Of a DNA stretch of 64,000 bases, positions 2,075 through 52,671 are shown in pieces. The number at the start of each line of letters is the position of its first letter. Position 1 is the first letter of the stretch. The DNA lies in NCBI GenBank assembly GCA_015956445.1, contig WIUZ02000018.1, positions 248,001 through 312,000 on the forward strand, written 5' to 3'. This DNA comes from Thelephora terrestris (lineage: Eukaryota > Basidiomycota > Agaricomycetes > Thelephorales > Thelephoraceae). The position numbers and the translations under genes are program-made. The notes under the pieces are model-generated. The model was not told the origin of the DNA and ran no database searches. It saw only the letters and a list, made by a program, of their open reading frames with translations.

Positions 2075-2075
2075 G

Positions 2076-4849: not shown

Positions 4850-6184
4850 TTTGGTAGGATGATGGGAAAGTTGCTGGTGTTGCTGATCAAGGATGGCTCC
4901 AAGAAGATGTCCTTCTTATAGCCTAGATCGGTGATCCTTCACGTGACCTACCTCAACGCACCTCATTGGTCCGGGTCACATCAACTTCCGCCACTGTACC
5001 ATCATCGTTGGCTTACTACATCAAGCTGACACCTCGACCTGCGGGACAGCCTTGGAAGAACTTCGTTCCGGAACGCCTAGAACACGTGTATACTAAAAAT
5101 AGGTCTCATGACCTTGACGACCCCCTTCACGATCCTGATGATTCATTTATGACATCACGATAACGACAAACCCTGGACCCTGATCGCACACGTGGGCATG
5201 GGGTATCTACACTTGGACACTGTGCTTCTGATCAGCATGAGCTCCAATTGGTTGCTCTTTGGAAGCAGAGTAGGCCCTAGCCTCGAACAGCGGCCAAATA
5301 ATATAATCCCAGACACGCGTATTGAAACAACCAGGTCTTCACTAAGACAGGGCCATGGGCAAAAACACATGGTCTTGCGCGCTGCAAGTCTGGTGACTGC
5401 TGGTCTGTGGATATCATACCACCTACTGACAACAAGGGATGTATAGAGTTCCTATCTCTAGCCAATCGCAGAAGCTAGCGACGGTTCTCATCTGACCCTT
5501 GGCTGTGGTCTAGATTCAGGTACAAACTTTCATGACCCCATACCCCTATTTCTTTTAGAACTAGTGTTATCTTTACCCCTATGTTTCATGCGGACTATTG
5601 TTATCCCTAATGCAGTCCTTCACACGCTAGTAAGGCCCTTTGTCCTTTATTCTCCCATGCGTCATATTTGTTCGCTTCCCTTACTTAGCGTTCTCACACT
5701 CCTTATCTCCCTTTGTTCTATCTTGATAAGGGTATAATAGGGTTACTGACGTCATGGCCATTCTCTTAGTATAAGTAGCAACTGTGGCTGTATCGTAGTA
5801 CCTTAGTTTTGTTACCTCAGGAAATCCTCTGCCCTTCTCAGCCCAGTTGCAGTTAAGGTCAAGGCAGAGTTTTCTGTTTGAACACAAGACACCACCATCT
5901 GCTCTCCCTCCCGCTCTGCGCATCAACTGTGCCTTGTAACTATAGAACCCCAGCGTTCACCATATAGAATACCTCAAGCGTCCAGTCGATCACCTGGTTG
6001 TCAGGAACATGGTATTTTTAAACTTTTTATAACACGCTCTTTCTTCGAACTCTTCTTACCACTTCTTATGTTTTGAATGCTTCACACTCCTTATCCTTCA
6101 CACCAATCATTCAAACACACAAACACGCATACCATTCCCAGCGAATCGTAACAACATGGCTATATACGGTGCTATCCAAGTCCA

Positions 6185-7923
6185 TCAAAAGTCAACTCTA
6201 TCTACGGCAGGCCTCATGGTCATCAGTGTTCCATCCCGGAGATCAAAGAACCGGCCCCTCCTCGCAAGGAGCTCTCCGAACATGGCGTCACCATCTTCCG
6301 CGCTCAACTGAACCTCGAGTTCAAGCCGATAGGAAGAGATACCTTCGAGCGGACCGATCAGCCTCCCAGATGTCACCGAACTGCGGAACACTTGGTCCCA
6401 CATCTCCATCACCGGGTGAGTGTTCGGCAGCGCTGTCAACGTAGTCGAAAAGCAACCCTCTGTCTCCCTCATCGAACCCCTGGGTGGGATCCTGCCTTGC
6501 GAGACGAAGCTGGTGTCTGAGCTGGATCTCCAACTCGACCTGTTGGTTAGGACGGTTGACCCGGTATCGGAAGGATCTTCCCTCATCTCAACCAGACTGG
6601 TCACCATCCGACTCAACTGGACGCGGGTATGGATTAGCCGAGGGAGCCATACAATGAGCAAGGCGGCGTCAAGAGCGTTTACAACGCTGCCCCTTGATCA
6701 CCGGACGTACCTCAATGGCCCTCGGAGCATCTTCGGCCCGGTCGACTTCCATGACCTCATCCTCGATCTTGACCAGCTGACTAATCGGCTGCAGCGGGCA
6801 ACGCCGACAGTTCTCTTTGTCGGACTCGGCCAAAGTGGAAGCTGGAGCTAGAGTCGGGACAGGAACCGCGTTCTCGATTGGAGGCGTTGCGTAGGACGAC
6901 GGGTTAGGCGAAGGGACTACCACCTCGTCGGCGTACTCCAACTCAAACGGAACATCGGCTGTCCCCTGCCCAACCAAGACAGGACCTTCCTTGCAGTTGC
7001 AGGTCTTGTCCTGCAAAGACTCGACCTGTGCCGTCAAGACGGACACCACATCCTCGAGTTCCTCCATCTAGAAAGTGTCAGCTTCCCTCATTTCGTCTTC
7101 GAGATGAGGAAAGCTACCTTAGTGTCCCTCCTATTCAAGGCCCCCTTGATGTTGTTGTCCCAAACCTTCAGACTGGTGACTAACTCTTGATGGTTAGCAA
7201 CCATCGCCTCCAACGCCTTGTTTGTTCCCTGCTGGAAGGCAGCCAGGGTCTCCTTCATCAAGAGACCCTCCGCCGACAGACAAAGGACGTCTGTCTTCGC
7301 CTCCTTCACCTCGTGCTCTAAACGTTCAACCTAGGCAGTTTGATTAGTCGAGAGTCATACTTGAATATTCAAACGGAAAACCTACTTGGCTTTCCCCATC
7401 TCGAACGAGCGACCACAACAACATGGTGGAAGCGGTGGCGTGGCGGACGGCCCAAGGAACAGTGGCCCCATGCTCCAACAGGTCCTGATTGTAGATACCC
7501 CTCTGCAGGGTGTACCAGAGCTCCTTCTTGATCGGATGCTCCAACTCCCCGAACCTGCCCCTCATCTGGAAGATCACCTTCTCAGCGATCATGGACCGGA
7601 CCCAGAGCTCATCGTCCCAGGTCAACCCCATCAAATGTGGGATTGTCTCCCTGAGACGTTCGGCGTCCACCTTCTTCACGACCTCCAAGATCTAGAAGCC
7701 GTTAGTTTGACGTCAACGCCCAAAAGAACGTAACCTCTACCTAGAGGAAGGCGTTAGTGCAAACACAAGAAGCTCTAGACCTCCCCCATACCTGTTCATC
7801 CGTGGTATAGGGAACCCCCGCCTCATTGGCGTAGGTCTTGCGGTTGGCGGCACGACGGTCGATGCGGGAGATGGTGGAGATGCCGTTGGCGACTTTGTAG
7901 GTGTGGTTGTTTGGGAAAGACAT
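6185..7923 (-). CDS. Family B coiled-coil protein gene (in B2)
   Basis: A multi-exon minus-strand gene from ATG 7923 to the TGA at 6185. Blocks in order: a short N-terminal exon (MSFPNNHTYKVANG, then a segment with TTDEQ); an exon with LTWDDELWVRSM and HPIKKELWYTL; a coiled-coil exon rich in Lys, Glu and Leu (KEAKTDVLCLSAEG); a second coiled coil ending in a CNCK motif; an acidic, proline-rich linker with an ENCRRCPLQP motif; a basic stretch; and a conserved C-terminus (MEMWDQVF, SSYRLELEVQLSAEDGDAMF, ending RPAVDRVDF). Introns are short and of GT-AG type. Three other B copies in the window preserve the same blocks. I recognise no known domain; a DNA- or RNA-binding structural protein is possible but unproved. 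Confidence 0.65.
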
Positions 7924-8820
7924 TTCGGTAAGATGATGGGGAAGTTGCTGGTGTTGCTGATCAAGGATGGCTCCAAGAAGATGTCCTTCTTATAGCCTAG
8001 ATCGGTGATCCTTCACGTGACCTACCTCGACGAACCTCATTGGTCCGGGTCACATCAACTTCCGCCCCTGTACCATCATCGTTGGCTTACTACATCAAGC
8101 TGACACCTCGGCCCGCGGGACGGCCTTGGAAGAATTTCGTTCCGGAACGCCCAAAACACGCGTGCACTAAAAATAGGTCTCATGACCTTGACGACCCCTT
8201 TATGAACCCCTTTACGACCCTTGATGACTCATTTATGACATCACGATAACGACCAACCCTGGACCCTGATCACACACGTGGACAGTCACATCACCGTCTC
8301 CTAACCGGAGGAGGGAATCGCCGTTATTCGGAAGGAGTGCCTTAGACTCCTTTTGTTTAGCCCAGCGAATGTGGAGTAGCCGTTAGCGTGAAACACCGGC
8401 GAATCTGTAATCCCTCATGTCCCATGAGTCTAGGCCTGCGCTCCTCATGTTTGGACGTACGTTGAGGTTGCCACTAGTCCGTGATGCTGTTACCGCCTAT
8501 TGACAACAAGGGATGCTGTATGGTCTCTATCTTTGGCCTCTCCAAAGGAAGCATCCAAGAAGATTCTCACCTGACCCTTGGGTGTGATCCCCAGGTACGA
8601 ACTTTCATGACCCCATGCCCCTATTTCTTTTAGGACTAGTGTTATCTTTACCCCTATGTTTCATGCGGACATTCGTTATCTTTTATGCAATCCTTCACAT
8701 GCTAGTAAGGCCCTTTGTCCTTTATCTTCCCACGCGTCATATTTGTTCGCTTCCCTTACTTAGCGTTCTCACACTCCTTATCTCCCTTTGTTCGGACTTG
8801 ATAAGGGTATATTAGGGTAT

Positions 8821-8849
8821 TGACGTCATGGCCACTCCTTTAGTATAAG
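8821..8849 (+). promoter_or_regulatory. CRE site plus TATA box of family B sense promoter
   Basis: A perfect palindromic TGACGTCA (8821-8828) lies about 15 bp upstream of a TATAAG box (8844-8849). The pair is conserved in B1 (5747-5754, TATA near 5770), B3 (18901-18908, TATA 18924-18929) and B5 (30871-30878). TGACGTCA is the established target of CREB/ATF-type bZIP factors. The promoter fires away from the coiled-coil gene, toward the CCCTGACA end, and is followed by a long leader without an obvious reading frame. Confidence 0.6.
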
Positions 8850-8907
8850 TAGCAACCGTGGCTGTATCGTAGTACCTTAGTTTTGTTACCTCAGGAAATC
8901 CTTTGCC

Positions 8908-11830
8908 TGTCAGGGCCACTCTTCGCCCTCAGGTACCAGTGCTGTTGGTGAGTCGCAACTCCAACCAACAAGAAACAATGGGGCAAAGGGGGAACGACTT
9001 CCCTATATCCACCCAAAGTCTACGTGGTCCAAAACGCGATGGACGAGCGTTCTCCGGTAGGTTGTCCGAATTCACAGCAGGAGTGCCGAGCCTCTATCCG
9101 ATAAATCCCTATCGTCTTCTGAGGGCAGATACAAGAGCCCGAGGATGGCGCCTCAAACTGGTGCTTGATTAAGAGAGCGGCGAGGAACTCCTTTCTGTAA
9201 GCGCGTTCGCCGATTCTTAACGCAAGGCTGAGAGAGAGAGGAGAGCGAACGTGTTCAGAGAGTTACTCGATAAGCTCTTCAGTGGCCTACAGCAATTACA
9301 CCAATGCTGCAAGGAGAAGAGGACTTCCCGAGATATCAAAGATGGGGAGCCCTCAGCTACTCTACTGGTACTTATATAGAAGAGTGGCCGGGACATAGAT
9401 AACCCTATCTAATAATAACTCGGAGCAAAGAAGGGCCGAGAGTAAGCTGGAACAGTAAGCGGCCCGGGTTATAGAATAGAAATGATAAAGGAATGACTAA
9501 TGGGTCAGGGTTCGTGAGAGAATACGAAAGGGGTCATGACGTCGTGTGGGAAAGGAATGACAAAGAACAATATCACATGTGAAGACTGACCAATACGAGG
9601 ACGACGTGTCAGCTCGTCCGATCGGGACAACAAAAGACCGAGTGGGGTTTGAATGTTGAGGGCGAATTGTATGGGGAGTCTGGACCGGTGAAACGATGGA
9701 CCAATCCAATGGCGAATAGGGCGCGAGCGCTGTCGGTGGTCGAATAAAGCGTAGCGCAAACCGGCCGTTGGATCCATCAAACTCCCTTCTTCCAAACCAA
9801 CACTTCCACCAACCAACTACTCATCCATCATGCCCATGATCTCCGACCGTGTCTTCCGTGCTGAGAACAGCACTGCTACCATCGAGTCCGCGGATCCTCG
9901 ATCCATGCAGAACAAGAGCTACTTCTTGCCTAATGCCAGCGTGGCGTACCCCAGTTATCGAGAGGTGCGTTGCCACGCGCACGCCGGTGGTTGGCGTTCG
10001 ACTGACATCGCTTTCATAGATCTTCGCGGCCGCCGACAAGGTGGACGCCCGACAACTGGAGGCGACGATCGCCAAGCCTCCCAGCTACCTGACCATGGAC
10101 GACGAGTTGTGGTATCACAACTTGATCAACCACAAGCTGCAAGAGTCGATGCGCGGGGTAACGTTCAACACCAAGTTGCGCATGCCGTATGAGACTCCTG
10201 TGGCTTCGTCACTGTGGGGGCTCCTACGAATGGGGATCTACGATCTGGGGAACGGGGAAGGAAGGTGGCCTGGAGCGACTCGCTCCCAACATTACACAGC
10301 AGCCGTTGGTCACCGCCTTTGGTTCCTTTTGAGGACGGAACAGAAAGCGGTGAGTCGATCTGTGCATCCCGCTTGTGGGATAACACTGATTGGCTTTGTA
10401 GAATGAGCGGCTGAAGCGTGAAGTGAAGGAGGCGAAAGACAATGCTCGAAGGATGTACTCGGAAGCGTTAGATATGAAGAAGACGCTGCTCCTAATGAAC
10501 GATACACTCCGCATGACGTTCGAGAGCGAGATGCTGGCAATGCGCGAGGAACACAACCGATTGGTAGAGTCCTTGAAGGAACGGGACGATACCATCCAGC
10601 GGGACCTGATCGAGGTCGACCGACGGCTCAACCGTCATCGAAGGGCTCTGAACGAGCTCGACACCAAGGTCGGTGCGACTTCTCCTGGTCTTTAACCAAG
10701 AGAGCTCATACCGCTTCTAGGTTGATACGTTGGATGACGCCTTGCCGTTGCTGGGCGCTCGAGTCGAGTCGATGAGCGAGCGGTTGTGCCACTGCCGCAC
10801 ACGTTCGGTAGCCGCGGTGCGCGATGAGTCCGGGGACGAGTCGATCCCAGACCGGATGGCTTCTCCCATAGGTCGGGATGCCGGTTGACATATTTGACTT
10901 GTCCACTGACATCCCTCTTAGCTTCCGATGGGTCATATCGCACGCCTGCGCATACTGATGGCGGCGAGGAGGTCGTTCGCGAGACGTCTGAGGAGACGGC
11001 CGTGAACCCGATTAGCAGTTCTCCCGAGTTGGAGTACGCGGGGGAGAATGAGGTGGCTATTCCGGTTCCGCCTCCGTCGATCTCGCCGGTGCGTGGGCAA
11101 CGTTCTATCCGTGCTCGTCGATGGGTTCCTTATCGTGGGGCACTTCGTCCAGCCCACCGCATGCGTCCCAGTAATCCCGACGCTGTCCGCCAGGGCGGAG
11201 ACATTGAGTCCACCGTCCTATTCCGACGCAACGATGTTGCAGTGTCGCGTGGATCGCGGCGAGTTGATTCCGGTGGAATCCGTCGACGTGAACGGATTGA
11301 CGAACCTTACGCTCTTGTCGGTCCAGCGTGCAGCGGAGGCCGTTCGCCTGGTGGCTCAACTGACCGAGAGAGTGGAGGGTTGGTCCGTCCAGAGGACTCT
11401 GGATCAGACTACGGTCGATTCAGCGAGGAACCGCCTGCACGCCGAGGTTCAGCTGGCCGTCGCTCATCGTCTGGAGGAAGCTCGGGTCGTTGAGATGGTC
11501 GACAAGGAAGTCGTCGAGAGTGCCTCGGAGGGGACGGAGGAGGAGATTGCCAGTGCTGAGGAGTACTGGCAAACCAGGTCTTGATGATAGAGTCAGTGCA
11601 CGTTAGCCTTTGTCCATAGGGTCGGTGCGGATTCAACTCCGTTGGCCATTCGTCTTGTGTCCTTGTTGCGGGTTCGCCCGCTGTAATATCATCTGTGTCT
11701 TGCCTTTCGGATGACGTGTGAGTCATGATAAGGGAAATGATGAGATAAGAAAGGGGTATAGGTAAGGAAAGTGGGCGAAAGTTGGGTGTGAAAATGGTTT
11801 AAAAAGGGAATAAAATTCAGCACGCTGACA
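8908..11830 (+). mobile_element. Family A element, copy A2 (looks whole)
   Basis: The element begins TGTCAGGGCCACTC at 8908 and ends CACGCTGACA at 11830. Flanking pentamers TTGCC (8903-8907) and CTGCC (11831-11835) differ by one base. The interrupted target is the leader of B2 and can be read uninterrupted in B3 at about 18978-19000. Length is 2,923 bp. There is no LTR pair. On the minus strand a TATA box (9372-9378) drives a leader toward 8908; on the plus strand the coiled-coil gene runs from 9830 to 11584. It looks whole and young. Confidence 0.8.
9830..11584 (+). CDS. Family A coiled-coil protein gene (in A2)
   Basis: A multi-exon plus-strand gene. Exon 1 starts at ATG 9830 (MPMISDRVFRAENSTATIES) and ends near 9966. 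The next exon carries PPSYLTMDDELWYHNLINHK and LLRMGIYDLGNGEGRW; then follow a long coiled coil (about 10403-10670) and a shorter one with a CHC motif near 10790. The C-terminal part is Glu- and Arg-rich and helical, ending EEYWQTRS. Exon order and the DDELW, KEAK coiled-coil and Cys-x-Cys motifs match the family B gene, so the two are distant homologues. Short GT-AG introns separate the blocks. No known domain recognised. Confidence 0.65.
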
Positions 11831-12452
11831 CTGCCCTTCTCAGCCAGTTGCAGTTAAGGACAAGTCAGAGTTTCTTGTTTGATCCAAGACATCCCCCATC
11901 TGCTCTCCCTCCCGCTCTGCTGTCAGGAACATGGTATTTTTAAACTTTTTATAACACACTCTTTCTTCGAACTCTTCTTACCACTTCTTATGTTTCGAAT
12001 GCTTCACACTCCTTATCCTTCACACCAATCATTCAAAACACACAAACGCGCATACCATTCCCAGCGAATCGTAACAACATGGCTATATACGGTGCTATCC
12101 AAGTCCATCAAAAGTCCACTCTATCTACGGCAGGCCTAAAGGTCATCAACTGTCCATCCTGGAGATCGTAGTGCTGGCCCCTCCTCGCAAGGACCTCTCC
12201 GAACATGGCGTCACCATCCTCAGCACTCAGCTGAACAACTAGTTCAAGCCGATAGGAAGAGATGCCTTCGAGCGGACCGATCAGCCTCCCAGATGTCACC
12301 GAACTGCTGAACACCTGGTCCCACATCTCCATCACCGGGTGATTGCTCGGCAGCACTATCGACGTAGTCGACGAGTGACCCACCGTCTCCCTCGTCAGAC
12401 CCCTGGGCGGGATCCTGTCTTGCGAGTCGAAGCTGGTGGCGAAGCTGGATCT

Positions 12453-13405
12453 CACTGGGGACAAGGGGTCAAATACCCAGTGGGTACATGCTGAACACAT
12501 TGTGATCACAGTCAACAAGTGATCACAATGTGCCCAGTGGGGGAAATTTGAATACATTCAAAATGTGCCTGGCCATGTGAGTCCAATGTGCCCAGTAGGC
12601 ACATTTTGATTGTGGTCACAATGTACCCATCAATGTGATCTCAATGTGCCCACTGGGGACATTTTGATTGTGATCACAATGTACACATCAGTGTGATCTC
12701 GGTGTGCCTGCTGTGCACATTTTAATTTCTTTCACAATGTTCCCATCAATGTGTTCTCAATGTACCCAGCTCATTACAAAATAGTTTCTTTCACAATGTT
12801 GTCCACAATGTGTCCAGCATGTGGCTGAGCCACTCATTCAAACTTCTTTCACAAAGTATCCAGTGATGTGTCCATAATGTCTCCAGGGGGTTCTTTTTGA
12901 AGTAATCACAATGTAATCTCAATATTGTTCAATTTCACCATGAACTTTCAAAGAAATCACTATGTGTATGGCTGCACACATTCTAGACACATCACTGGAT
13001 ACTATGTGAAAGAAGTTTGAATGAGTGGCTCAGCCACATGCTGGACACATTGTGGACAACATTGTGAAAGAAACTATTTTGTAATGAGCTGGGTACATTG
13101 AGAACACATTGATGGGAACATTGTGAAAGAAATTAAAGTGTGCACAGCAGGCACATTGAGCTCACATTGATGTGTACATTGTGATTGCAATCAAAATGTC
13201 CCCAGTGGGCACATTGAGATCACATTGATGGGTACATTGTGATCACAATCAAAATGTGCCTACTGGGCACATTGGACTCACATGGCCAGGTACATTTTGA
13301 ATGTATTCAAATTTCCCCCACTGGGCACATTGTGATCACTTGTTGACTGTGATCACAATGTGTTCAGCATGTACCCACCAGGTATTTGACCCCTTGCCCC
13401 CAGTG
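12453..13405. mobile_element. CACTA foldback element F3
   Basis: A 953-bp imperfect palindrome beginning CACTGGGGACAAGG and ending TTGCCCCCAGTG. TCT at 12450-12452 and 13406-13408 is the 3-bp duplication. The uninterrupted target is readable in B5 at about 28566-28582, where GGATCTCCGACTCG is continuous. The arms carry many copies of acattgtgatcac and tgggcacatt, probable subterminal binding sites. Same subfamily as F4. Confidence 0.92.
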
Positions 13406-14699
13406 TCTCCGACTCGACCTGTCGGTAGGGACGGTTGACCCGGTAACGGAAGGATCATCCCTCATCTTGACCAGACTGGTCACCATCCGACTCAACTGGA
13501 CGCGGATATGGATTAGCCGATGGCGCCATGCGATGAGCAACACGGCGTCGAGAGCGTTTACAACGCTGCCCTGTTGTCACCAGACGTACCTCAATGGCCC
13601 GTGGAGCATCTTTGGCCCAGTCAACCTCCATGACCTCCAGTAGTCCTTATTAAAAACATTAATGTTTTAGGAGTTTTTGTTGCAAATTTGAATGATTTTT
13701 CTCATGAGTTTTTGAATGGCCTGAGGGGGGATATTTTACTCATAAAGTTTTAATGGAAATTATGGGGGGGACTGGGACCCAGCTTACTGGGCACTGGTGC
13801 TCCCGATTAGGCAGGTGCCGACAGTGTGGGTGGCCCAGGAGAGTGGATTGCTTATATAATAAAAATTAAAAAATTCAGGGAAATTCCAGAAAATTCTGGA
13901 AAAATTCCAAAAATTATTAGAAAATTCCCACGGGTGTCAGGGAGGGCAGAAAATGAAAAATGGACTGTGGGAATTTCCGATCAAAATTTCCCAAAAAGGA
14001 AATTTTTGATGGCTTACATAAGCAACTCAAAAATGATTTTGATATTGAATTTCCTTTTTGGGAAATTTTGATGGCTGACATAAGCAGGTCATGTGACTGA
14101 AAAAAGTGGGTGTTGCTTATGTAATCAGGTCATGTGACCGACCAAAAAGGAAAGTTTTGATGGCTTACATAAGCATCTCAAAAATGCTTTTGGAGGGGTC
14201 TTTCCTTAAAGGGAAATTCCTTTTTAGGAAATATTTGATGGATTACCAAAAAAGGAAATTTTGATGGCTTACATAAGCAACTCAAAAATTATTTTGGCAA
14301 AATTTTCCTAAAAAGGAAATTATATGCTAGAAAATTCGGAAAAATCCCAGAAAAATCCTAAAAAATACCGAAAAAATTCCCACACGTCTAGAAAGTGCCC
14401 AAAATGGTAAATTATTCCCAGAAATATTCAAAAAATTGTTTTTCTGGCTGGAAAAATCAGGAAAAAATTCCAAAAATTCCAGAGTATAGATAAATATTTT
14501 ATAAAAATTATTTCAATTTTTTTGGTCCATTGAATAGCCCATAATTTCAATATTAATATATTTTTTGCCCAAAAAATTCAAAAAAATCCCAAAAAAATTG
14601 ATAAAAATAGGAAAATACAAATTTATCTGTAATATTCATTATATCATGAAGTACAGACCAGTTTGTGGTCATAAACTAGCCCTAAACCTAGTCCTGGAC

Positions 14700-14975
14700 C
14701 TAACCTAACCTAACCTAACCTAGCCTAACCCTAACCCTAACCTAGACCTAAACCTACACCTAACCTAAACCTAAACCTAACCTAACCTAACCCTGACTTA
14801 ACCTAACCTAACCTAACCTAAACCTAACCTAACCTAACCTAACCTAACCTAACCTAACCCCAAACCTAACCTGCCCTAAACCCAGCCTGCCCCAAACCTA
14901 TCCTAGCACCAAACCTAAACCTAAACCTAAACCTAAACCTAAACCTAACCTGCCCTAAACCTAACTCTGACCTGG
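14700..14975. repeat. Telomere-like CCTAA/CCCTAA array, left arm
   Basis: Tandem cctaa units dominate, with a few ccctaa, followed by aaacct variants and near 14990-15030 a tctta run. The fungal telomere repeat is CCCTAA, so the array resembles but does not equal it. It lies inside palindrome H, not at a chromosome end. Confidence 0.85.
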
Positions 14976-14988
14976 CCTAGTTCAGCCT

Positions 14989-15019
<31 letters not shown>

Positions 15020-16016: not shown

Positions 16017-16047
<31 letters not shown>

Positions 16048-16059
16048 AGGCTGAACTAG

Positions 16060-19300: not shown

Positions 19301-19412
19301 ACGTCTCATCACCACTAAGTCAGTCGGTGCCCTGCCCTAAACATGGCGGTAAACTGTTTATTATGCCATATGCCCTATGCCTAACGATTCAAAGTCCAAT
19401 ACGTGGAACGTG

Positions 19413-21413: not shown

Positions 21414-21421
21414 CAGAGTAG
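21414..21421 (+). promoter_or_regulatory. TATA box of the family C sense promoter
   Basis: TATATATA preceded by TCACGTCA about 30 bp upstream, a near-CRE. It fires away from the coiled-coil gene toward the GCCTGACA end. C2 and C3 keep the same box. Confidence 0.5.
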
Positions 21422-23487: not shown

Positions 23488-25768
23488 TGTGATGATTTTG
23501 CCGTCTACCCCCTTTTATTTCCTTTATTTCCCATCTCATCACTACTAAGTCAGCTGGTGCCCTGCCCTAAACACAGCAGTAAACTGTTTATTATGCAATA
23601 TGCCCTATGCTTAATGATTCAAAGTCCAATACGTGGAACGTGTTGCTAGTCAAGATACCCCAGAAGACCTGAGGTATAATACGTGAACATGTACTGGCAG
23701 ATCCTCTCACAAAGATCCCCCCTACCTGGCCCTCCATTGCCTCCTGAAGACTAGCAAAGATTCAGGCTACTGACAACAAGGAATGCATTAATAAGTGTCC
23801 CGCGCTGACCGCTCGCAGAAGTCAACCAGCTTATTAATCTGACCCTTGGATTGGACTTATGAAAATCATTATGTTTAATGACCCATGGATCACGCGCAAA
23901 AGACAACAAAGAAGATCGATTCCAAAGCCAACTAGTTACAAGAGGAATCATCTACTCAGGAACAATATCCTGGTCAATCCTCTGGACCAACTCCAGAGCC
24001 CTCTCCATCAACGGGAGATCCTCCCAGTTCCTCTGCCAAATCTCGTTTGGGTCCACGTCCAATAGGTCCTCGTAATCTGGAAGATCCGTATCAGAGTTTG
24101 GTTCCGAATCTGGAACAAACTCAGTGTACGGATCAAACTCCAAAACCGATCCAAGGTATCAAGATTCAGGACATGGAGTATCCCTACGGACAACTCTGAC
24201 ATTCCTGTGGAACTCCTCTTTGCAGATCTCAATGACCTCATCATCAATCGGAATCGATCGGCCTTCGACTGGGACCACGAACCGAGCAGGTGGAGACTTG
24301 GCCTGCTCCGGAATCATCAGCTCCTCTTCCTCAACTCGAATCTCTTCTCCTTGACACCTCCTTTGGAGATCACGGACTTCTCCGGTCAACTCCAAGACAC
24401 GACGGGTAAGACAAACCTAAAAATATGAAGTTAGAACAACCACAAGTCAGTTAGAACAACCACAAGTCTTCTAACCCCACCCCTTACCCTGTCATCCTCC
24501 ATCCTTCCAGTTTGGTCAATCAGACCCTGGACCAAGTCCTTCAAAGCGATCACTTCCCCCTAAAAGAAAGATTGGGTTAGAGATTAAACCATCTCCCGAC
24601 CCAACCTTTCTTACCTTCAACCTTTCAATAGCGACATCCTGCTCTTCCCTTGCATCCTCAGCCACCAATGACCATTCCTGAAACCTGAGATAATCCTTCT
24701 CGAGCCTTTCAATCTCTTCGCGGCGACCATCAACTCGCTCATTAACATGAGCAATCTCGTCCATCAACATAACACCAATGTTGCTTGTATGAATAACGCT
24801 GGCGTCCAGGACAGAGTTGAAGGTCTTGTTTGTTTCAGTAATGAACTCGACACCATGACCCAAGAGTTCAGACGCATAAGGAGTAGTCTCTATACACGCC
24901 AACTTGCGCTGAGACACCCTCCGAGAAGCCTGGATAAAGTCCCTGAATCCTAAAAGGAATTAGGTTGCTTTCCTAAATCGGAATGCACAACCAAGTCCCC
25001 CACCTAAGTCAGTAAACCCTTCAGTAGGGTCGGCGGTGGCAGAACGGTCCAAGATGTTCCCTAAAGTAGGATAGGGATGGGAACAATCACCACGAGCATG
25101 GGTAAAGTGGTCAGTGTTGAAGTTATTCTCCTGAATAGGAGAAGGGTTGGAAGAACGACGAGAGGGAACACAAGTTTGAGCACGAGGCATGTTGGCTGTG
25201 TGTGTAACAAAGGGTGGTTTGTTGGAAGACCCAGTCACCCAACCCCCTTTGGTTATATGCTCCCCTTTTGCTATTGGCTGTTACTCAGCCAACCCACATT
25301 CATTTCCGCTGTCTTTGTCATGCTCTCAAATTGCTATCCACTGTTATTGTTTTGCATGAGTCATCATGACTCACTTGTATTACTAAGAGTCTTAGTCATC
25401 CTGTGCACAGACCAGGCTGTGCTGCGCATGGACCTTGTATGACTCTGTTTGTATATTAGTGTAGTCACTAGTCACAAATCACATCACAAATCTAGGTAGT
25501 ATATATACCCGAGGTAGTTTAGTTTGTACTTCCCTAGATTTGTTATCATCAGACTCTCTGTAACCTCTACTGCTGTGTGCTAAGAGCAAGAGTATCTGAA
25601 GACCCCTTGTCTCCATCTTTCTTCTTTTATCTATCTTGTCTGTGAAGAGACTTCCGATATCCCTGGGTTTGCATAAAGGGAAAACTGTGTGTTTGACCCT
25701 TTATTGTGATAGGTTTGAATACCCAGAGTGGTATTGAACTGTACTGTAGAGGTCGTGTCGGCCTGACA
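23488..25768 (-). mobile_element. Family C element, copy C2
   Basis: Left end TGTGATGATTTTGCCG at 23488, right end GTCGGCCTGACA at 25768; flanks GCGCC (23483-23487) and GTGCC (25769-25773) agree in four of five bases. It is inserted in the transposase gene of P, whose frame continues across it. Length is 2,281 bp. It is more diverged from C1, C3 and C4 than they are from one another, so it is probably the oldest C copy here. The gene blocks are all recognisable. Confidence 0.78.
23952..25190 (-). CDS. Family C coiled-coil protein gene (in C2)
   Basis: Starts at ATG 25190 (MPRAQTCVPSRRSSNPSP) and ends at the TAG at 23952 after RIDQDIVPE. It has the same block order as C1: the helical exon with HVNERVDGRREEIERLEKDY, the LTGEVRDLQRRCQGEEIR exon and the acidic EPNSDTDLPDYEDL motif. 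Whether it is fully open across its introns was not settled. Confidence 0.5.
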
Positions 25769-28046
25769 GTGCCTTCAACACCCTTGTACAGTTGCGCCAG
25801 TTTGTCATAGAGGGGAAGGAGGAAGGATTTAACGTCCTTGACACATTTGGGACCAGGGATGGTGCTGTAGCAGAGTATATGGTTGAGGTGAGTCCGGAGA
25901 TCAGGGGGGAGGTTGTAGCTGAACAGAATGATGGGCCATGCTGAATTTCTTCGGCGTTTGAATGGAGTGAACCTGTCAAGAGAGAGTACGAGCGCAATAT
26001 CTCTGTGATCAGAGAAATACTGATGGGAAAGGGTCTTGCCATTTACAGTAACCTGTTGTTCACAGAGCTCCCAATACAGTGCATCGTCAAAAACATCAGT
26101 AACCTTTTCGTCATCCCTCAACTTGTTATACTTGTCTCGGTAGTTCATCTTCTCTGCGGTCTCCTTGTCAAGGAAGAGTGCGATAAGTTGAGGGATGATT
26201 GGTAAGTATTGAAACTGTTTTCTGGGCCGCTCATTCTGATTGTATTGAGGTTCGTTGCAGTCAGGGAAGGGACAGCGGTCCAACTTCTCGTACTTTCCTG
26301 TGTAGCAGCAGCAAGAGTTCATGCCACAGTCAATGTACCTGGGACTCAGCCCCAAAAGTCGCGCAACTGTCCTCTGAGCAAGATAGAGCAAGCTAATGTC
26401 CCCAAGCTCCGGGAATGCCAAGCGAAGTGCCTCGTAAGCCTCTCTTGTCGTTCCCTGTGTCAGGCCGACACGACCTCTACAGTTCAATAGCACTCTTGCT
26501 ATCCAAACCTATCGTATTCAGGGGTCAAACACACGGTAATAACCCTGATACAAACCCAGGGATATCGGAAGTCTCTTCACGGACTTAGAGTAGAAGAGGG
26601 GAGAAAGAAGGAGACAAGGTTTGTCAGATACTCTTGCTCTTAGCACACAGCAGTAGAGGTCACGGAGAGTCTGATGATAACAAATCTAGGGAAGTACAGG
26701 CTAAACTACTCTGAGTATATATACTTCCTAGATTTGTGACATGACAGTGACAAGTAACTACACTAATGATACAAACACAGACAAACATGGTCCGTGCACA
26801 GCACTGCATGGTCTGTGCGTTATGTGGTGACTAATGCTACAAATTATCAGCTGATAAACGAAAGTGTGGCAGCCAATAGCAATTTGAGAGCATTACAAAG
26901 CAGTTACAAAGCATGTCATATCATGGGAATGTTCGGAAACGAATGTGGGTTGGCTGAGTAATAGCCAATAGCAAAAGGGGAGCATATGACTAAAGATAGG
27001 GGCATATGATGTCATGTGGGTCATGCGCAGTAAACAATAGAAAAGGTGACTCAGCTCCTGAGTCGTGGAAGGGGCGTGGCATTTGGTATATAACCAAAGG
27101 GGGTTGGATGACTAGGTCTCCCAACAAATCCTCCTTTGTTACATACAGCCAACATGCCACGTGCTTCTACTCAAATTCCCACTCGTCACTCTACCTCCAA
27201 CTCTCCTGTTCAGGAGACCAACTACAACATTGATCGCTTCACCCATGCCCGCAACGATAGGTCCCATCCCTATCCTACTTTGGGGAGCATTCTAGATCGT
27301 TCCGCCACCGCCAATCCTACAGAAGGGTTTTCTGATTTAGGTGGGGGGACCTGCTTATGCATTCTGGTTTAGGAATCTAAGCTAACTTCTTCTAGGTTTC
27401 AGGGATTTCATCCAGGCTTCCCGAAGGGTGTCTCGGCGCAAGTTGGTGCGTATCGAGACTAACCCTTATACGGCCGAACTCTTGGGTCGTGGCATAGAGT
27501 TTGTTACCGAGGCAAACGAGACCTTCAACTCAGTTCTCGATGCCAGCGTTGTTCATATGAGCAACGTTGGTGCATGTTGATGGATGAGATTGCTCATGTA
27601 AATGAGCGAGTTGATGGTCGCCACGAAGAGATTGAGAGGCTTGAGAAGGATTGTCTCGAGTTCCAAGAATTGACTTTGAAGATGGAGGATGAACAGGAGC
27701 AACAGGGTATGGCCATTGATCGGTTGAAGGTAAGAAAGGTCGGGTCAGGAATAATTGACCTTTCTAATCCAACCTTTCTTTAGGGAGAGATGATCATGTT
27801 GAAGAACTTGATCCGGGGTCTGGTTACCCAGACGAACTTGATCCCAAGTCTGATTGATCAAGTTGGTGGATTGGAGGATGACAGGGTAAGGGGTGGAGCT
27901 AGAACTTCTTTTGTGTTTGTTCTAACTCCTTCCCTTTTAGGTTTGTCCTACCGTCGTGTCTCGGAGTTGACCGGAGAAGTCCGTGATCTCCAGAGGAGGT
28001 GTCAGGGAGAGGAAGTTCGAGTTGAGAAAGAGGAGCCGATGATTCT

Positions 28047-31000
28047 TGTCAGGAACATGGTATTTTTAAACTTTTTATAACACGCTCTTTCTTCGAACTC
28101 TTCTTATCATTTCTTATGTTTGAATGCTTCACACTCCTTATCCATTACACCCATCATTCAAACACACACAAAACGCGCATACATTCATGGCAATACGAAA
28201 CAACTAGGCTATACGATGCTTATACAAATCCTCAAAAGTCCACTCTATCTACTGCAGGCCTAAAGGTCACCAACCGTCCATCCCGGAGATCATAGGCCTG
28301 GCCCCTTCTCGCAAGGACCTCCCCGAACATGGCGTCACCATCTTCGGCACTCAGCTGAACGGCTAGTTCAAGCCGATAAGAAGAGATACCTTCGAGCGGA
28401 CCGATCAGCCTCCCAGATGTCACCGAACTCTGGAACACTTGGTCCCACATCTCCATCACTGGGTGACTGCTCTGCAGCACTATCGACGTAGTCGGCGAGC
28501 GATCCTCCGTCTCCCTCATCGGACCCCTGGGTGGGATCCTGTATTGCGAGTCGAAGCTGGTGGCGAAGCTGGATCTCCGACTCGACCTGTCGGTAGGGAC
28601 GGTTGACCCGATAGCGGAACTTTCGTCCCCCACCTCGACCAGACTGGTCACCATCCGACTCAACTGGACGCGGGTAAGGATTAGCCGATGGAGCCATGCG
28701 ATGAGCAACACGGCGTTGAGAGCGTTTACAACGCTGTCCTGTTGTCACTGAACGTATCTCAATGGCCCTCGGAACATCTTCGGCCCGATCCACCTCCATG
28801 ACTTCATCTTCGATCTTGACCAGCTGACTGATCGGCTGCAACGGACAACGCCGACAGTTCTCCTTGTCGGATTCGGCCAACGTAGAAGCCGGAGCCGGAG
28901 TCGGAACGGGAACCGCGTTCTCTACCGGAGGTGTCGCATAGGATGACGGGTTAGGCGATGGGAGTACCACCTCGTCGGCGTACTCTAGCTCGAACGGAAC
29001 ATCGGCAGTCCCCTGGCCAACCAACACTGGACCCTCCTTGCAGTTGCAGGTCTTGTCCTGCAAGGACTCGACCCGCGCTGTCAAAACGGACACCAAGTCC
29101 TCGAGTTGTTCAGTCTAGAGAAAGATGTCAGCTTCCCTCATTTCGTCTTCGAGATGAGGAAAGCTACCTCATCGTCCCTCCTCTTCAAAGCCCCCTTGAT
29201 GTTGTTGTCCCGAACCTTCAGCCCGGCGATCAACTCTTGATGGTTGGCAACCATCGCCTCCAACGCCTCGTTCGTCCCCTGCTGGAAGGCGGCCATAGTC
29301 TCCTTCATCTCAAGACTCTCCGCCGACAGACGAAGGACATCTGCTTTTGCCTCCTTCACCTCACGCTCTAATCGTTCCACCTAGGCCGTTTGGTTAATCG
29401 AGAGTCATACTCGAATATCCAAACTGAAAACCTACTCGGTTTTCCCCTTCCCGAACGAGCGACCACAAGAGAGTAGTGGCGGCGGTAGCATGGCGGACGG
29501 CCCGAGGAACGGTTGCCCCGTGCTCCAACAGGTCCTGATCGTAGATTCCCCTCTGCAGGGTGTACCACAATTCCTTTTTGATCGGGTGCTCCAATTCCCC
29601 GAACCTACCCCTCATACGGAAGACCACCTTCTCGGCGATCATCATACGGACCCAGAGTTCATCGTCCCAGGTCAACCCCATCAGATGTGGGATCGTCTCC
29701 CTGAGACGTTCAGCGTCCACCGGCTTGACGACCTCCAAGATCTAGAAGTTGTTAGCTCAACATCTACGCCGATGCTGTACAACCTCTACCTAGAGGAAGG
29801 CGTTAGTGCTAACACAAGAAGCTCTAGACCTCCCCCATACCTGGTCATCCGTGGTATAGGGAACCCCCGCCTCACTGGCATAGGTCTTGCGGTTGGCGGC
29901 ACGGCGGTCAATACGGGAGATGGTGGAGATACCATTGGCGACTTTGTAGGTATGGTTGTTGGGGAAGGACATGTTTTGGTAAGATGATGGGGAAGTTGCT
30001 GGTGTTGCTGATCAAGGATGGCTCCAAGAAGACGTCCTTCTTATAGCCTAGATCGGTGATCCTTCACGTGACCTACCTCGACGAACCTCATTGGTCCGGG
30101 TCACATCAACTTCCGCCCCTGTACCATCATCATTGGCTTACTACATCAAGCTGACACCTCGGCCCGCGGGACGGCCCTGGAAGAACTTCGTTCCGGAACG
30201 CCTAGAATGCGCGCGCACTAAAATTAGGTCTCAAGACCCTGATGACCCCTTTATGACATCACGAACCCCCTTTTACGACCCCTCATGACTTTACGATTAC
30301 GATCAACCCTGGACCCTGATCACACACGTGGACAGTCACATCACAGTCTCCTAACCGGAGGAAGGACTCGCCGCTATTCGGAAGTATTGCCTTAGGATTC
30401 TTCGGGTTAGCCCAGTGCATGTGGAGTAGCCGTTAGCGTGAAACGCCGGCGAATCTGTAATCCCTCATGTCCCATGAGTCTAGGCCCAACCTCCTCATGT
30501 TCGGACGTACGTTGAGGTTGCCACTAGTCCGTGATGCTGTTACCGCCTACAGACAACAAGGGATGCTGTATGGTTCCTAATCTTTAGCCGCTCCACAGGA
30601 AGCATTCAAGTAGTTTCCACCTAGCCCTTGGGTGTGATCCCCAGGTACGAACTTTCATAACCACATGCCCCTATTTCTTTTCGGACTAGTGTTATCTTTA
30701 CCCCTATGTTTCATGCGGACATTTCTTATCTTTTATGCAATCCTTCACACGCTAGTAAGGCCCTTTGTCCTTTATTCTCCCACGCGTCATATTTGCTCGC
30801 TTCCCTTACTTAGCGTTCACACACTCCTTATCTCCCTTTGTTTGGACTTGATAAGGGTATATTAGGGTATTGACGTCATGGCCACTCCTTTAGTATAAGT
30901 AGCAACTGTGGCTGTATCGTCGTACCTTAGTTTTGTTACCTCAGGAAATCCTCTGCCCTTCTCAGCCCAGTTGCAGTTAAGGACAAGTCAGAGTTTCTTG

Positions 31001-31346
31001 TTTGATCCAAGACACCCCCATCTGCTCTCCCTCCCGCTCTGCGCATCATCTGTGCCTCGTAACTATAGAACCTCAGCGTTCACATTAGAACACCTCGAGC
31101 GTCCAGTCGATCACCTGGTGGAGTCATCAATCCTGTTGTAGAGATAAACCCTTGCTTGTTAAACCGAACAAAGTGCGGTTTAGGTTGGGTTTCTCTTTAG
31201 GATTTTGACCTGACTTGTAGTGACCTCGGACAACCTACCGGAAGAATAGAGACGTGATCGTTCTCTCACAAGCTAGTTGGACTAGTGAGTACTCTGCGGA
31301 GTCGGCTCAGTGCACTGGTAGTTGTTGGGGTAGAGTGGCCCTGACA
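28047..31346 (-). mobile_element. Family B element, copy B5 (best example)
   Basis: Exactly 3,300 bp from TGTCAGGAACATGG to GTGGCCCTGACA, with a perfect 5-bp duplication ATTCT (28042-28046 and 31347-31351). It is inserted in the last exon of the C3 gene. It holds the full family B layout: the coiled-coil gene on the minus strand, then CRE and TATA on the plus strand (30871 onward) and a leader of about 450 bases to the right end. The ends share only TGTCAGG. It looks whole or nearly so. Confidence 0.88.
28232..29972 (-). CDS. Family B coiled-coil protein gene (in B5)
   Basis: ATG at 29972 (MSFPNNHTYKVANG), stop at 28232 after RPAVDRVDF. The exons correspond to those of B2: the DDELW exon at about 29394-29738, the coiled-coil exon at 29180-29380, then the CNCK and ENCRRCPLQP blocks. 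The blocks are strongly conserved between B2 and B5 although the copies inserted independently. Confidence 0.65.
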
Positions 31347-32661
31347 ATTCTGGGGCGGGCCGAGTCTCCGCCTGCTCATTTGGTGATCCAGTATGAGAAC
31401 CAGTTGGTTCTGGTTGATGACGAGGTCATCGAGATTTGCGAGGAAGAGTTTTACAGGAACGCCGGAGTTGTCCGTAGGGATACTCCACGTCCTGAATCTT
31501 GATATCTTGGGTCGGTTCTAGAGTTTGATCCGTACACCGAGTTTGTTCCTGATTCAGAACCGAACTCTGATACGGAACTTCCAGATTACGATGACCTGTT
31601 GGACGTGGATCCGAACGAGATTTGGCAGAGGAATTGGGAGGATCTCCTGTTAGTGGAGAGGGCTTTGGAGTTGGTTCAGAGGATGAACCGGGATCTCACT
31701 CCTGAGTAGATAGTTCCTCTTGTAACTCGTTGACTTCAGAATCGATCTTCTTTCTTGTCTTCTTGTGCATGATCCATGAGTCGTTAAGCATAATGGTTTT
31801 CATAAGTCCAATCCAAGGGTCAGATTAATAAGCTGGTTGACTTCTGCAAGCGGTCAACGCGCGACACTTATTAACACATCCCTTGTTGTCAGTAGCCTGA
31901 ATATCTACTAGTCGTCCAGGGGCAACGGAGGGCCAGGTAGGGGAGATCTTCGTATGAAGATCTGCCGGTACATGTTCGCATATTATACCTCGGGTTTTCT
32001 GGGATATCTTGACTAGTAGCATGTTCCATGTATTGGACTTTGAGTTGTTAAACATAGGGCATATTGCATAATAAACAGTTTATCGCTGTGTTTAGGGCAG
32101 GGCACCAACTGACTTAGTGGTGATGAGGCGTAGAATGAAGAAAATAAAAGAGGGTAAACGGCGAAATGATCACACCCTGTATGACAAAGTAGTTGAAAGC
32201 GCGGATGTCTTTTACTTCCAAATAAACTAATTTGGCCACCTGCGGGTAAACTGTAAAGGAAACTGAAATTTTAACTTAGAATAAATTGATACAACTAAAT
32301 GGCAAGAAACCCTATTAGTAAATTACAATAAACTCACAGTTTGCCAGTCAAGCAAACAAGCTCGATAAACCGGGATCAGGGATATTTTGAATTTACTGAT
32401 CAAATTTGATTGCAGTTTACTGAGGTCAGTAGTGACTGGTAAATACTGAAATTAGTTGGAATATACTACATTGGGTAAACTGAGAGAAAATTCAAAGGAA
32501 AAATAACAAAAAACAGAGTCAGTAAAGCATGGGTAAATGGGCTCAGCAAATTTGAAAATTACTTAGCAAAAACTGGCTAGGTTTGTTGTCAGGTTAATTT
32601 TCCATGTGCTTGTGATTTACACAACATTTACCTAATCAGCAAACCAACCCCTGTCCCCAGT

Positions 32662-32925: not shown

Positions 32926-33030
32926 TGTCACGAACGCGTGACATAGTAGTTAAAATCGCACAGATAATTCAAGACATTGGGCTTATTCGCAGAAATACTA
33001 GTACACAGGCTGTCAATCGCAACTACAAAC

Positions 33031-33925
33031 TCAAACAAGGACAAAAGGATCTACATCACAAGCACAGTCCTGATCAAACGGACAACAATGTGCGAAATGG
33101 TGAGGGTTGTGCACACTCTGAGGACAATACGAGTATGCTCGTGTTACCGGATCCTGCCAACACTCCCTACACCCCAACACGTCATGAAAAAAACTCTCAT
33201 GCATCTCCCTCTTCACGTCCGTCAACGCCGCGCTCACTAATGCGAACCCATAGCGGTCCTGGAGACCCGCTACCTCCACCTTCAACTTCATCCGGACCTG
33301 TCGTGACTTGTCGGAGGGACGACAACGTTGTCCAGTACGAGCAATCGGACTTTTGCGACTCTTCTTCTGGGTCCTCTCCACCATCTGACGACGAGGGACA
33401 GGACTCCAGGGAGGGGATTGAGGGAGAGGGACTCCCTGGTCTTGAAGGCGGCGGAGGGACGACGGGGGAGTGGGGAGTTGCATTGGTGCAATAGGCTCCA
33501 TGACACCTGTGACCAAAGTATCGGAGGAGAGACTCCTGGAAAGGTTTCCAATGTTCCAAGGCAAAGTGAGAAAAGTCTTCGTTGAGACTGTTAACAACCA
33601 CATACATGACGTCCATCCTCTTCTCCAACTTCAAAATACGATCCTCCCTCTCTTGCTCCATCGCATCCTGCATGGGAGTGACTCCAGGAGCCCACCTTCG
33701 AGTTCGGTTGGGATCTTCATACCCAGCTTGTTCCCAAAACTCGGCAGGAGCATTGTGAGCGGTCAGGAAGTCGATCGCCACCTGATTATCGTGAGCAATG
33801 TTGGCGGGGGTGTCGTATAAGTGTTGCTCCACGTCGAAGGGAGCGTCCATCTCAAAGGACGGAGAGAGATCGAAAGGGGTGGCGGCGGCGTTGAGCAAAG
33901 CATTGTTGGCAGCGTAAGCAGACAT
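33031..33925 (-). CDS. Family D leftward coiled-coil/Cys-rich protein gene (D1)
   Basis: Starts at ATG 33925 (MSAYAANNALLNAAATPFDL). The first frame runs to 33197 and includes APAEFWEQAGYEDPNRTRRW, a coiled coil (MEQEREDRILKLEKRMDVMY), then RYFGHRCHGAYC and an acidic Ser/Pro tail. A second minus-strand frame ending at 33031 is Cys-rich (GCRECWQDP, SYCPQSVHNPHHFAHCCPF) and is kept almost unchanged in D2 while the DNA has diverged, so it is probably a final exon. The CHGAYC motif recalls the CNC and CHC motifs of the B and A genes. Function unknown. Confidence 0.55.
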
Positions 33926-34527
33926 GGTATAGATCTGGTTGAGGAGGAGAGTGGTAGTAGTAATTGTGGGAAGGGAAAAGAGGCGATGAGAGGAAAAGAC
34001 CAATAATCCCCCTGGATTATATACGTCTGACTCAATAAGATACCAAAAGGGGAAAACAATAAATCATCATCCATTTTAACTCCGACTAGGATAAACGAAC
34101 CCTTAACCCCAATCATGATCCCATCAATTCCAGAGAAATCCCCATCACACTTCTATTGATCCCATGAAACGAGAGAAATCCCCACCGATCAAGAGAAATC
34201 CCCATCAGACTTTAAAAATGACTCATTCGCTATTGTCCCCTTACTTTGTACTCGATACTGGTTGTACTAAGTTCCACTTTTCTGACTCATCTACCCTACC
34301 CTAAAGTACGCACAGACCATGTTGACCCCTGTTTGGTTCGTTGTAGGATTATGACTCCTGTAGAGGATTGGGTATATAAGGAAGAGCGTTCGCTCCTTTC
34401 TTTTCCCCCATTCTCAATCTCTTCTGTACTCCTCTACTCATAACCTGAATAAACAAAGTAAGCTAAGGAATCCTCCTTACGCCTTACTACTTCTGACTCA
34501 TTCTAGCAGGAAATCTCCTGCCAGTGT
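33926..34527. promoter_or_regulatory. Bidirectional promoter of family D (D1)
   Basis: The leftward TATA (TATATAAT on the minus strand, 34016-34023) and the rightward TATA (TATATAAG, 34373-34380) lie about 350 bp apart. Between them at about 34130-34205 the word gagaaatccccatc is repeated several times, a possible activator site. D2 has the same arrangement, with TATATAAG at 51873-51880 and the repeats at about 51640-51710. Confidence 0.6.
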
Positions 34528-35151
34528 ATGTTCAGTGCCCCAAACCCCTTTCCCTCTAACAGTCCAGTTCAACGCCCTACCGTCCCTGACGCCAGGAGAT
34601 CTATCTGGGAGTATAAACTCATCAGGAGTCTCCAAGTAAATCGAACTGCCGGTTTACTCACCCACTTCCCTTACTATCGCCCCTTTGCAGCCCTCGACGC
34701 CGGAGTCACGACCCCCCCTTTCCTCTTAGGGGCAGATCACCAGTTCCTTTGGAACTCCGACTTTACTGAGAGCGTCCTAGCGACTGTCTACTTCAGTATA
34801 AGTCCCGCCTTCTACTTCCCTAACCCACACGTTCATCTTACTACTAATATCCATACTCATTCCCCTGCTATCATCGTTCTTTGGTGGGAAGTGCCAACTG
34901 AATTACCTTATTCGGTCATAGAATATCTCGTCAACTTCGAACGTCTTAGCGATCAAGACTTCGACCCGTTCGTACAACAACTAAGCCAGTTTTGTCAAGA
35001 CTACCATTCGCCGGTCCACCCTTACCAAACAGAGTCACCTCTCTCTCTTGACATCCCTCCCCCTCTCACCTCTACCCCCGGTACTCCCCTCAAGCCTCGA
35101 CCAGACACCCCTCACCCGTCTGCTAATCCTCTAGCGCCCCACAAACAGTAA
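34528..35151 (+). CDS. Family D rightward 207-aa protein (D1)
   Basis: A single-exon frame of 207 codons starting MFSAPNPFPSNSP and ending just before the element terminus. The core is hydrophobic and aromatic (TAGLLTHFPYYRPFAALD, TESVLATVYFSISPAFYF, HSPAIIVLWWE); the C-terminus is proline-rich. Its partner in D2 has the same length, with about 27 amino acid differences and many silent ones. There is no signal peptide and no recognised domain. Conservation in length and core suggests a real protein. Confidence 0.7.
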   Translation: MFSAPNPFPSNSPVQRPTVPDARRSIWEYKLIRSLQVNRTAGLLTHFPYYRPFAALDAGVTTPPFLLGADHQFLWNSDFTESVLATVYFSISPAFYFPNPHVHLTTNIHTHSPAIIVLWWEVPTELPYSVIEYLVNFERLSDQDFDPFVQQLSQFCQDYHSPVHPYQTESPLSLDIPPPLTSTPGTPLKPRPDTPHPSANPLAPHKQ

Positions 35152-35176
35152 GCAGGCCCACAACCCTGACACACAA

Positions 35177-52651: not shown

Positions 52652-52671
52652 GCAGGCCCACAACCCTGACA

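Follow-up and report, generated by a model that had tools for sequence, protein, structure and literature searches.

Long terminal repeats carrying minus-strand genes in Thelephora terrestris, probable solo copies of self-priming chromoviruses

Chromodomain-bearing Ty3/Gypsy retrotransposons (chromoviruses) of the Tf1/Sushi and Tcn1 groups, such as Tj1 of Schizosaccharomyces japonicus, prime their own reverse transcription (PMC4600332, PMC6317226; these and the other sources cited here are drawn on for the sections that concern the elements named). Additional open reading frames (ORFs) in antisense orientation have been described in the long terminal repeat (LTR) retrotransposons Grande, RIRE2 and Retand and in the fungal element Boty (brtn) (PMC7264820, PMC8365987), while in plant elements other than chromoviruses the LTRs reach about 5 kb (PMC6317226). 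The subject of the present analysis is a 64,000-bp stretch of the basidiomycete Thelephora terrestris (contig WIUZ02000018.1, positions 248,001 to 312,000; hereafter the window), from an assembly of 40.6 Mb in which the contig is designated C10 in the numbering used for loci below. It contains four families of elements, A to D, with TG...CA ends. Two of these, A and C, are LTRs that surround chromovirus interiors. With a probability of roughly 80%, all four are LTRs of self-priming, Tf1/Tcn1-like chromodomain Ty3/Gypsy retrotransposons, nearly all of which have no interior.

The families measure 3300 bp (A), 2410 bp (B), 2923 bp (C) and 2246 bp (D), and each has a minus-strand gene and a plus-strand TATA box, relative to the orientation of the element. 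They are inserted into one another, and palindromic elements are likewise part of the nest. The ends, the sizes of 2.2-3.3 kb and the plus-strand TATA promoters given by a first-pass annotation of the window were confirmed, with small corrections to the coordinates. The features of A and C are as follows, the last of them lying on another contig.

28047..31346, plus strand: family A, intact solo LTR of 3300 bp, TGTCAGGAACATGG...GTGGCCCTGACA, duplication ATTCT/ATTCT
30894..30899, plus strand: A sense promoter TATAAG, predicted from sequence
30928..30939, plus strand: TAGTTTTGTTAC, presumed 5' end of the A RNA, complement of the priming site GTAACAAAACTA
5999..21793, plus strand: further A copy, broken by nested insertions, with CTGGT at its start and a matching CTGGT past its 3' end
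8908..11830, minus strand: family C LTR of 2923 bp, TGTCAGCGTGC...GTGGCCCTGACA, duplication TTGCC/CTGCC (one mismatch)
9333..9343, minus strand: ATCTTTGATAT, presumed 5' end of the C RNA, complement of the C priming site ATATCAAAGAT
3447..4365, plus strand: second C copy, 3' part, ending in GTGGCCCTGACA
about C12:1328739-1334567: C-flanked sister chromovirus interior, recognised by C at both junctions

The intact A copy at 28047-31346 sits within a minus-strand B copy, and its sequence also borders a Ty3/Gypsy interior elsewhere in the genome, at locus L071. A further A start, at 11921 (flank TCTGC), has no matching 3' end.

The interiors were found by comparing the positions of A ends (100 of the 410 in the genome) with those of integrase matches, 12 kb to each side. 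At 5 of 49 integrase places, A ends in the same orientation lay on either side, but the distances matched only on contigs C1 and C4, and both of these places proved to be A-type copies. In the C4 copy (L071) an A 3' end is followed by a 5079-bp interior and then by an A 5' start. This interior encodes a pol of 1367 amino acids and a gag zinc knuckle, the latter recognised by eye, and its stretch ahead of pol is about 1 kb shorter than that of the other copies. Pfam domains, scanned on the pol of one A copy, comprised RVP_2, RVT_1, RT_RNaseH, Integrase_H2C2, rve, SH3_Tf2-1 and Chromo, that is, protease, reverse transcriptase, RNase H and integrase, followed by a Tf2-type SH3 domain and a chromodomain. 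A genome search with the L071 pol returned 11 near-full-length matches, eight at 97-100% identity (A) and three at 62% (C). The C pol was assigned through this 62% identity, which extends across A residues 62-1367 and spans the Chromo match (1263-1312). In one copy, the junctions of which were read in part, a C start lies directly behind the sister pol and a C end ahead of the interior, and C is therefore an LTR as well. Both families thus display the pol order with chromodomain and the direct LTR copies around an interior that characterize Ty3/Gypsy chromoviruses. This is the arrangement that the first-pass annotation had proposed to look for, namely copies in the same orientation on either side of an interior with reverse transcriptase and integrase and, immediately behind CCTGACA, a priming site.

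The two LTRs of one A copy are identical over their last 496 bp, and those of another agree at 569 of 570 bp, which indicates a recent date for both insertions. On contig C23, two A copies lie 9310 bp apart, while in the C1 copy 9318 bp, i.e., one LTR and one interior, separate the two LTR ends; the C23 spacing is consistent with a shared middle LTR produced by unequal exchange between LTRs. In seven of the eight A pol copies the aligned frame is interrupted by TGA (once in six copies, twice in one).

These interiors also bear on the alternative, entertained in the first-pass annotation, of DNA elements like the Ginger/TDD transposons, which would end in TGT...ACA and use an integrase of retroviral type as their transposase. 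TG...CA ends and short target duplications would suit such transposons, but A and C border reverse-transcribing elements, the paired LTRs being nearly identical in both of the A copies examined for this, and the existence of LTR pairs already refutes the proposal for A and C. Moreover, no transposase was recognised among the A, B and D LTR proteins tested, for which Pfam gave no family above its curated cut-off. For the set as a whole, we consider this origin extremely improbable.

The junctions between LTR and interior suggest how replication would begin. In A, GTAACAAAACTA begins 2 nt past the LTR and is the exact complement, over 12 nt, of the LTR sequence 34 nt after the TATA box; in C, ATATCAAAGAT also begins 2 nt past the LTR and is the complement, over 11 nt, of the LTR sequence 33 nt after the TATA box. 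The sequence following the priming site, CCAGCCGGTACC, is common to A and C, and the two priming sites differ in step with their own LTRs. A pattern composed of the LTR end, 14 nt and CCAGCCGGTACC, with the priming site itself left open, occurs at 11 places genome-wide (eight A and three C), versus one place for the reversed control. The 11 junctions pair one-to-one with the 11 pol copies, each junction lying 0.9-2.0 kb upstream of its pol. Judging from this complementarity, A and C would self-prime in the manner of Tf1. Transcription would start just past the TATA box within the LTR, and the 5' end of the RNA would fold back onto the priming site and prime reverse transcription. The integrase of the element would then insert the copy, thereby making the 5-bp duplication, and recombination between the two long LTRs would later remove the interior and leave one LTR behind.

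The priming site follows only 8 of the 410 A 3' ends. Allowing for the 3' LTRs of complete copies, about 394 A ends (about 96%) have no recognised interior, and most A copies are therefore solo LTRs or fragments. The 3' ends were counted for A, B and D with patterns of 25-30 bp, allowing up to 3 mismatches, across the 40.6 Mb, and amounted to 410 for A, 321 for D and 217 for B; the reversed patterns gave no match under the same conditions. Target duplications were scored in the window and at the further loci read, on copies without an interior. For D, 13 of the 14 copies in which both ends are present had exact duplications (one of them by way of a more distant 3' end), as did three of four A rows and three of five B rows; one of these three B rows pairs a B start with the end of another copy. 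The single C row (0 of 1 exact) differs by one mismatch. The 5-bp duplications that had been listed in the first-pass annotation are thus mostly exact. Copies with their own exact duplication (A 3/4, D 13/14) fit recombination between LTRs. Within the window alone, however, equality of the 5-bp flanks carries little weight: 18 TGT[CG]A...T[GC]ACA pairs with equal flanks, the genuine ones among them, emerged from a blind scan. It is the repeat counts (321, 410 and 217, versus 0 for the reversed patterns), rather than the flanks in the window, that exclude chance.

The genes within the A and C LTRs were delineated as follows.

29972-29841, 29741-29439, 29380-29168, 29114-28371, minus strand: A gene, in the unique 3' region (U3) of the LTR, four predicted exons, 464 amino acids, based on splice-like sites and frame
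9830..10885 (coding segments 9830-9967, 10020-10352, 10402-10692 and from 10721), plus strand: C gene, antisense to its LTR, based on homology to the A gene

The A gene spans 28371..29972, the end of exon 2 being uncertain by one codon; in the A copy at 5999, exon 1 is shorter by one base and out of frame. The ratio of non-synonymous to synonymous substitution rates (dN/dS) of the A gene is 0.14-0.18 in all six pairs of four copies. The corresponding values are 0.25-0.30 for the B gene (three copies) and a median of 0.21 for the minus-strand gene of D (66 pairs, 12 copies), while shifted frames of the three genes give 0.67-2.8. As judged by these ratios, the LTR genes of the families tested (A, B and D) evolve under purifying selection. 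The structure model of an annotated A homologue, P0053, contains a helix of 116 residues, and only this long helix is confident (predicted local distance difference test score, pLDDT, of at least 70 in 86 of 472 residues). The A product is predicted to be a spliced coiled-coil protein. The first-pass annotation had assigned one coiled-coil gene to each family. A minus-strand gene is indeed found in all four, but D carries two genes, and the coiled coil was modelled for the A-type protein only.

Whereas the families had been described as unrelated-looking, the minus-strand genes of A and C are homologous, with 39 of 107 aligned positions identical in addition to further matching segments, which suggests that the gene is older than the A/C split. 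Homologues of the A gene form 70 clusters at E<=0.001 (8000 candidates scored), all under the name of T. terrestris and all annotated as hypothetical proteins. Their annotation as ordinary proteins in so many clusters of this species might be taken to mean that the LTR genes are host genes, picked up by chance and selected for the benefit of the host. Yet A and C, the pols of which are just 62% identical, carry homologous genes in matching position and orientation, and the gene has therefore probably long been a fellow traveller of the LTR; in addition, many of the gene copies lie within precisely bounded LTRs. A host origin of this kind is considered very improbable. The A protein encoded in the LTR would serve the element itself, most probably by regulating its replication or integration or by acting as a cofactor in them.

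The coding and non-coding parts of the LTRs differ in their divergence. In A, synonymous divergence is 0.32-0.50 versus 0.07-0.11 in non-coding parts of the LTR (window copies and the copy at L033); in B, the values are 0.51-0.86 versus 0.12-0.19 (window copies). It is as if the non-coding parts in A and B were constrained, or homogenised between lineages.

The elements and genes of B and D are listed below.

19257..21666, plus strand: family B, TGTGATGATTTCGCC...GGCCTGACA, length 2410 bp, flanked by the duplication GTGAC and nested in an A copy
21404..21411, plus strand: B sense promoter TATATATA, predicted from sequence
19722..20745, minus strand: B gene, tested as two coding segments that lie in 20745-20338 and 20219-19722
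23488..25768, plus strand: second B copy, flanks GCGCC/GTGCC
26458..32174, minus strand: third B copy, interrupted by the A element at 28047-31346, CCCTG on both sides
32926..35171, plus strand: family D, 2246 bp, TGTCACGAACGCGTGACA...AACCCTGACA, duplication CACAA
34373..34380, plus strand: D sense promoter TATATAAG, predicted from sequence
33197..33925, minus strand: D minus-strand gene, 242 amino acids, based on dN/dS
34528..35151, plus strand: D plus-strand gene, 207 amino acids, ending 20 bp short of the 3' end of the element
50426..52671, plus strand: second D copy, nested within a B copy, flanks AAGAT/AGATT

For the second D copy, the assumption that the element has lost its initial T turns the flanks into an exact AGATT duplication. 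The 207-amino-acid ORF of D is intact in 27 of 31 sampled copies, a sample that comprises the 30 best nucleotide matches and the second copy of the window and is biased towards intact copies. Its median dN/dS is 0.049 (378 pairs among 28 copies of equal length), compared with 2.9 and 3.4 in the shifted frames and 1.5, 0.11 and 5.0 in the frames of the opposite strand. The low value of 0.11 arises because the third codon positions of that frame coincide with those of the D ORF, and the case for this ORF rests on its intactness and on the shifted-frame values. Its structure model (mean pLDDT 37, from 9 sequences) was unusable. Homologues of the D proteins fall into 9 and 43 clusters, which include T. 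terrestris together with metagenome and other entries.

Like A and C, families B and D have TG...CA ends, 5-bp duplications and a sense promoter that, by its sequence, points towards the 3' end. We consider it probable that they too are solo LTRs, the complete copies of which have been lost from the assembly or are unrecognised there. The suggestion of the first-pass annotation that these elements are solo LTRs with antisense genes has thus been observed for A and C and is extended by likeness to B and D, for which no interior was found.

A number of results weigh against this extension, or against the proposed scheme in general. Priming-site patterns for B and D yielded no complete copy, either in dedicated patterns (0) or in the open pattern with its 11 places; a first C pattern, overly strict in that it required one surplus base, had likewise returned 0 places. 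A purine-tract pattern for B and D starts matched 44 places (versus 24 for its reversed control), none of which, by eye, was an LTR start behind an integrase. Same-orientation B ends flanked none of 97 integrase places (among 100 of the 217 B ends). D ends lay to either side of 2 of 49 places (among 77 of the 321 D ends), but both were A-type copies, on contigs C1 and C11; at C1 the nearer D is the copy into which A is inserted. The 34 D 3' flanks examined showed no gag/pol similarity to A and no shared start, apart from one duplicated block. Complements of 9-10 nt between D and its flank occurred in two of the 34 (L004 and L029) and are taken as chance. Among 30 integrase loci (of 144 matches) with flanks of 1.5 kb, one contained D (L047), one contained pieces of A and C (L049) and none contained B. 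Furthermore, D carries a second, plus-strand gene, none of which was seen in A or C, and its exact duplications (13/14) are accompanied by a median pairwise dS of 0.67. Taken together, the latter two values imply that many distinct sources were seemingly active until recently, a picture that sits uneasily with the loss of all complete copies. Finally, transcription starts, splicing and proteins are predictions throughout.

Two candidates for a D interior were examined and rejected. Same-orientation D pairs about 7.5 kb apart resembled the two LTRs of one element, but none of the four 3' flanks read from them proved to be an interior. The identical 3' flanks of the D copies at L008 and L010 have an integrase at equal distance (18.96 and 18.98 kb, on contigs C22 and C8, respectively), which looks like a duplicated block instead. 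Indeed, C8 (about 921-942 kb) and C22 (about 113-135 kb) appear to share a duplicated block of about 20 kb, with nearly identical 1480-bp D 3' flanks.

The lack of an interior, both in the 34 D flanks and in the pattern searches, might be explained if B and D, in contrast to A and C, moved as single units of 2.2-2.4 kb, with the integrase of A/C or of another Gypsy element acting in trans, their own genes being selected because each unit moves by itself. The exact duplications in 13 of 14 D copies would agree with such movement, as would the intact sense ORF in 27 of 31 copies; at the same time, 21 of 28 sampled copies have their nearest D neighbour as far away as dS 0.13-0.47, and the ratio of non-synonymous to synonymous differences (pN/pS), pooled over nearest neighbours, is 0.076. 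We know of no route, however, by which a lone LTR with both ends complete would be copied by reverse transcription. In addition, about 96% of A 3' ends likewise lie outside recognised complete copies, and at the rate of primed junctions in A (8/410), the chance that 34 D flanks would show none is about 0.5, so that such an outcome is expected about half the time. The closest D pairs (dS 0.014-0.043) have raised dN/dS values of 0.15-0.30, as if inserted copies decay. Template switching, discussed for the element crapaud in the relevant section of PMC10787394, can spread diverged LTR modules, which also counts against single units. On balance, movement of B and D as single units seems unlikely. 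Slightly less likely still is a broader version, in which D and perhaps B are independent LTR-like units served in trans by a Gypsy integrase, A and C being units of the same kind that became, or stayed, joined to gag-pol. D would then comprise LTR-type ends and, between them, a pair of selected genes transcribed outward from a promoter region at its centre. We therefore retain the solo-LTR interpretation for all four families, at the strengths given above.

Further observations concern the nest and its surroundings. A near-perfect palindrome of 3.76 kb (13638-17398; arms of 1849 nt, 99% complementary, with 63 nt between them) has ends CAGTAGTCC, is flanked on both sides by TGACCTC and is inserted in an A copy. 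At 748-1690, 2072-3443, 12453-13405 and 22079-22954 lie fold-back elements, the ends of which resemble CACTGGGG. The one at 12453, within an A copy, has a 3-bp TCT duplication, which we take to be as in CACTA-type elements. A minus-strand ORF at 25627-26322 matches Transposase_21 (tnp2; Pfam E 1.7e-12); the segment responsible for the match (about 25774-26025) falls into the gap that separates two B copies, though the end of the ORF overlaps the B copy 23488-25768. Minus-strand ORFs with NPHP3_N/NACHT domains are present at 35841-37517 and 54056-55618, and a plus-strand ORF with a PXA domain at 47857-49239. On contigs C1 to C5, nested insertions of A and D at most 510 bp apart, near the 3' ends, are in the same orientation in seven of eight pairs. 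These pairs were drawn from 100 of the 410 A ends and 63 of the 321 D ends, and no target preference is claimed; the nesting hints at insertion into each other's transcribed part.

In comparison with known systems, A and C resemble the Tf1/Sushi and Tcn1 groups in the Tf2-type SH3 domain and chromodomain that follow the integrase, and in a priming site that would pair with the presumed 5' end of their own RNA, instead of with a tRNA. In contrast to those groups, their LTRs are 2.9-3.3 kb long and carry a selected minus-strand gene; to our knowledge, known chromovirus LTRs are short and non-coding. The superantigen gene of mouse mammary tumour virus lies inside the LTR, on the sense strand. The 3' LTR of human T-cell leukaemia virus contains an antisense promoter (PMC7264820). 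Both viruses thus offer LTR coding capacity or antisense transcription, as here, but belong to other virus groups. Grande, RIRE2, Retand and Boty share with the present families an extra gene opposite to gag-pol, with its function unassigned. According to the sections devoted to these elements, that gene is internal, mostly between pol and the 3' LTR (PMC7264820, PMC8365987), whereas here it lies wholly inside the LTR. An internal gene is lost when a solo LTR forms, while a gene that lies inside the LTR stays. The long-LTR plant elements are comparable in LTR length, but in the section that treats them they are described with extra ORFs and expanded non-coding regions, not with LTR genes (PMC6317226). 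Similarly, crapaud of Podospora anserina is a fungal LTR retrotransposon with LTRs diversified mainly in their U3 half, for which the relevant section discusses promoter and enhancer function rather than a gene (PMC10787394).

Chromoviruses that prime themselves, solo LTRs, LTRs of great length and additional antisense ORFs have thus all been described before. In a literature search, no description of a minus-strand gene within a fungal LTR was recognised. What appears to be new, on the basis of that search, is a selected minus-strand gene located wholly in the LTR of a fungal chromovirus, common to A and C and present in many copies.

Because the gene lies inside the LTR, it survives the very recombination by which the element is killed. 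Proteins that could help or hinder the few complete elements may thus still be expressed from hundreds of LTR copies, and the selection on the LTR genes suggests that their proteins matter to the spread of the element. The A/C pair, in which LTR start and priming site differ together, provides a clean natural test of self-priming. In terms of the host genome, many of the annotated "hypothetical proteins" of T. terrestris are the products of retrotransposon LTR genes.

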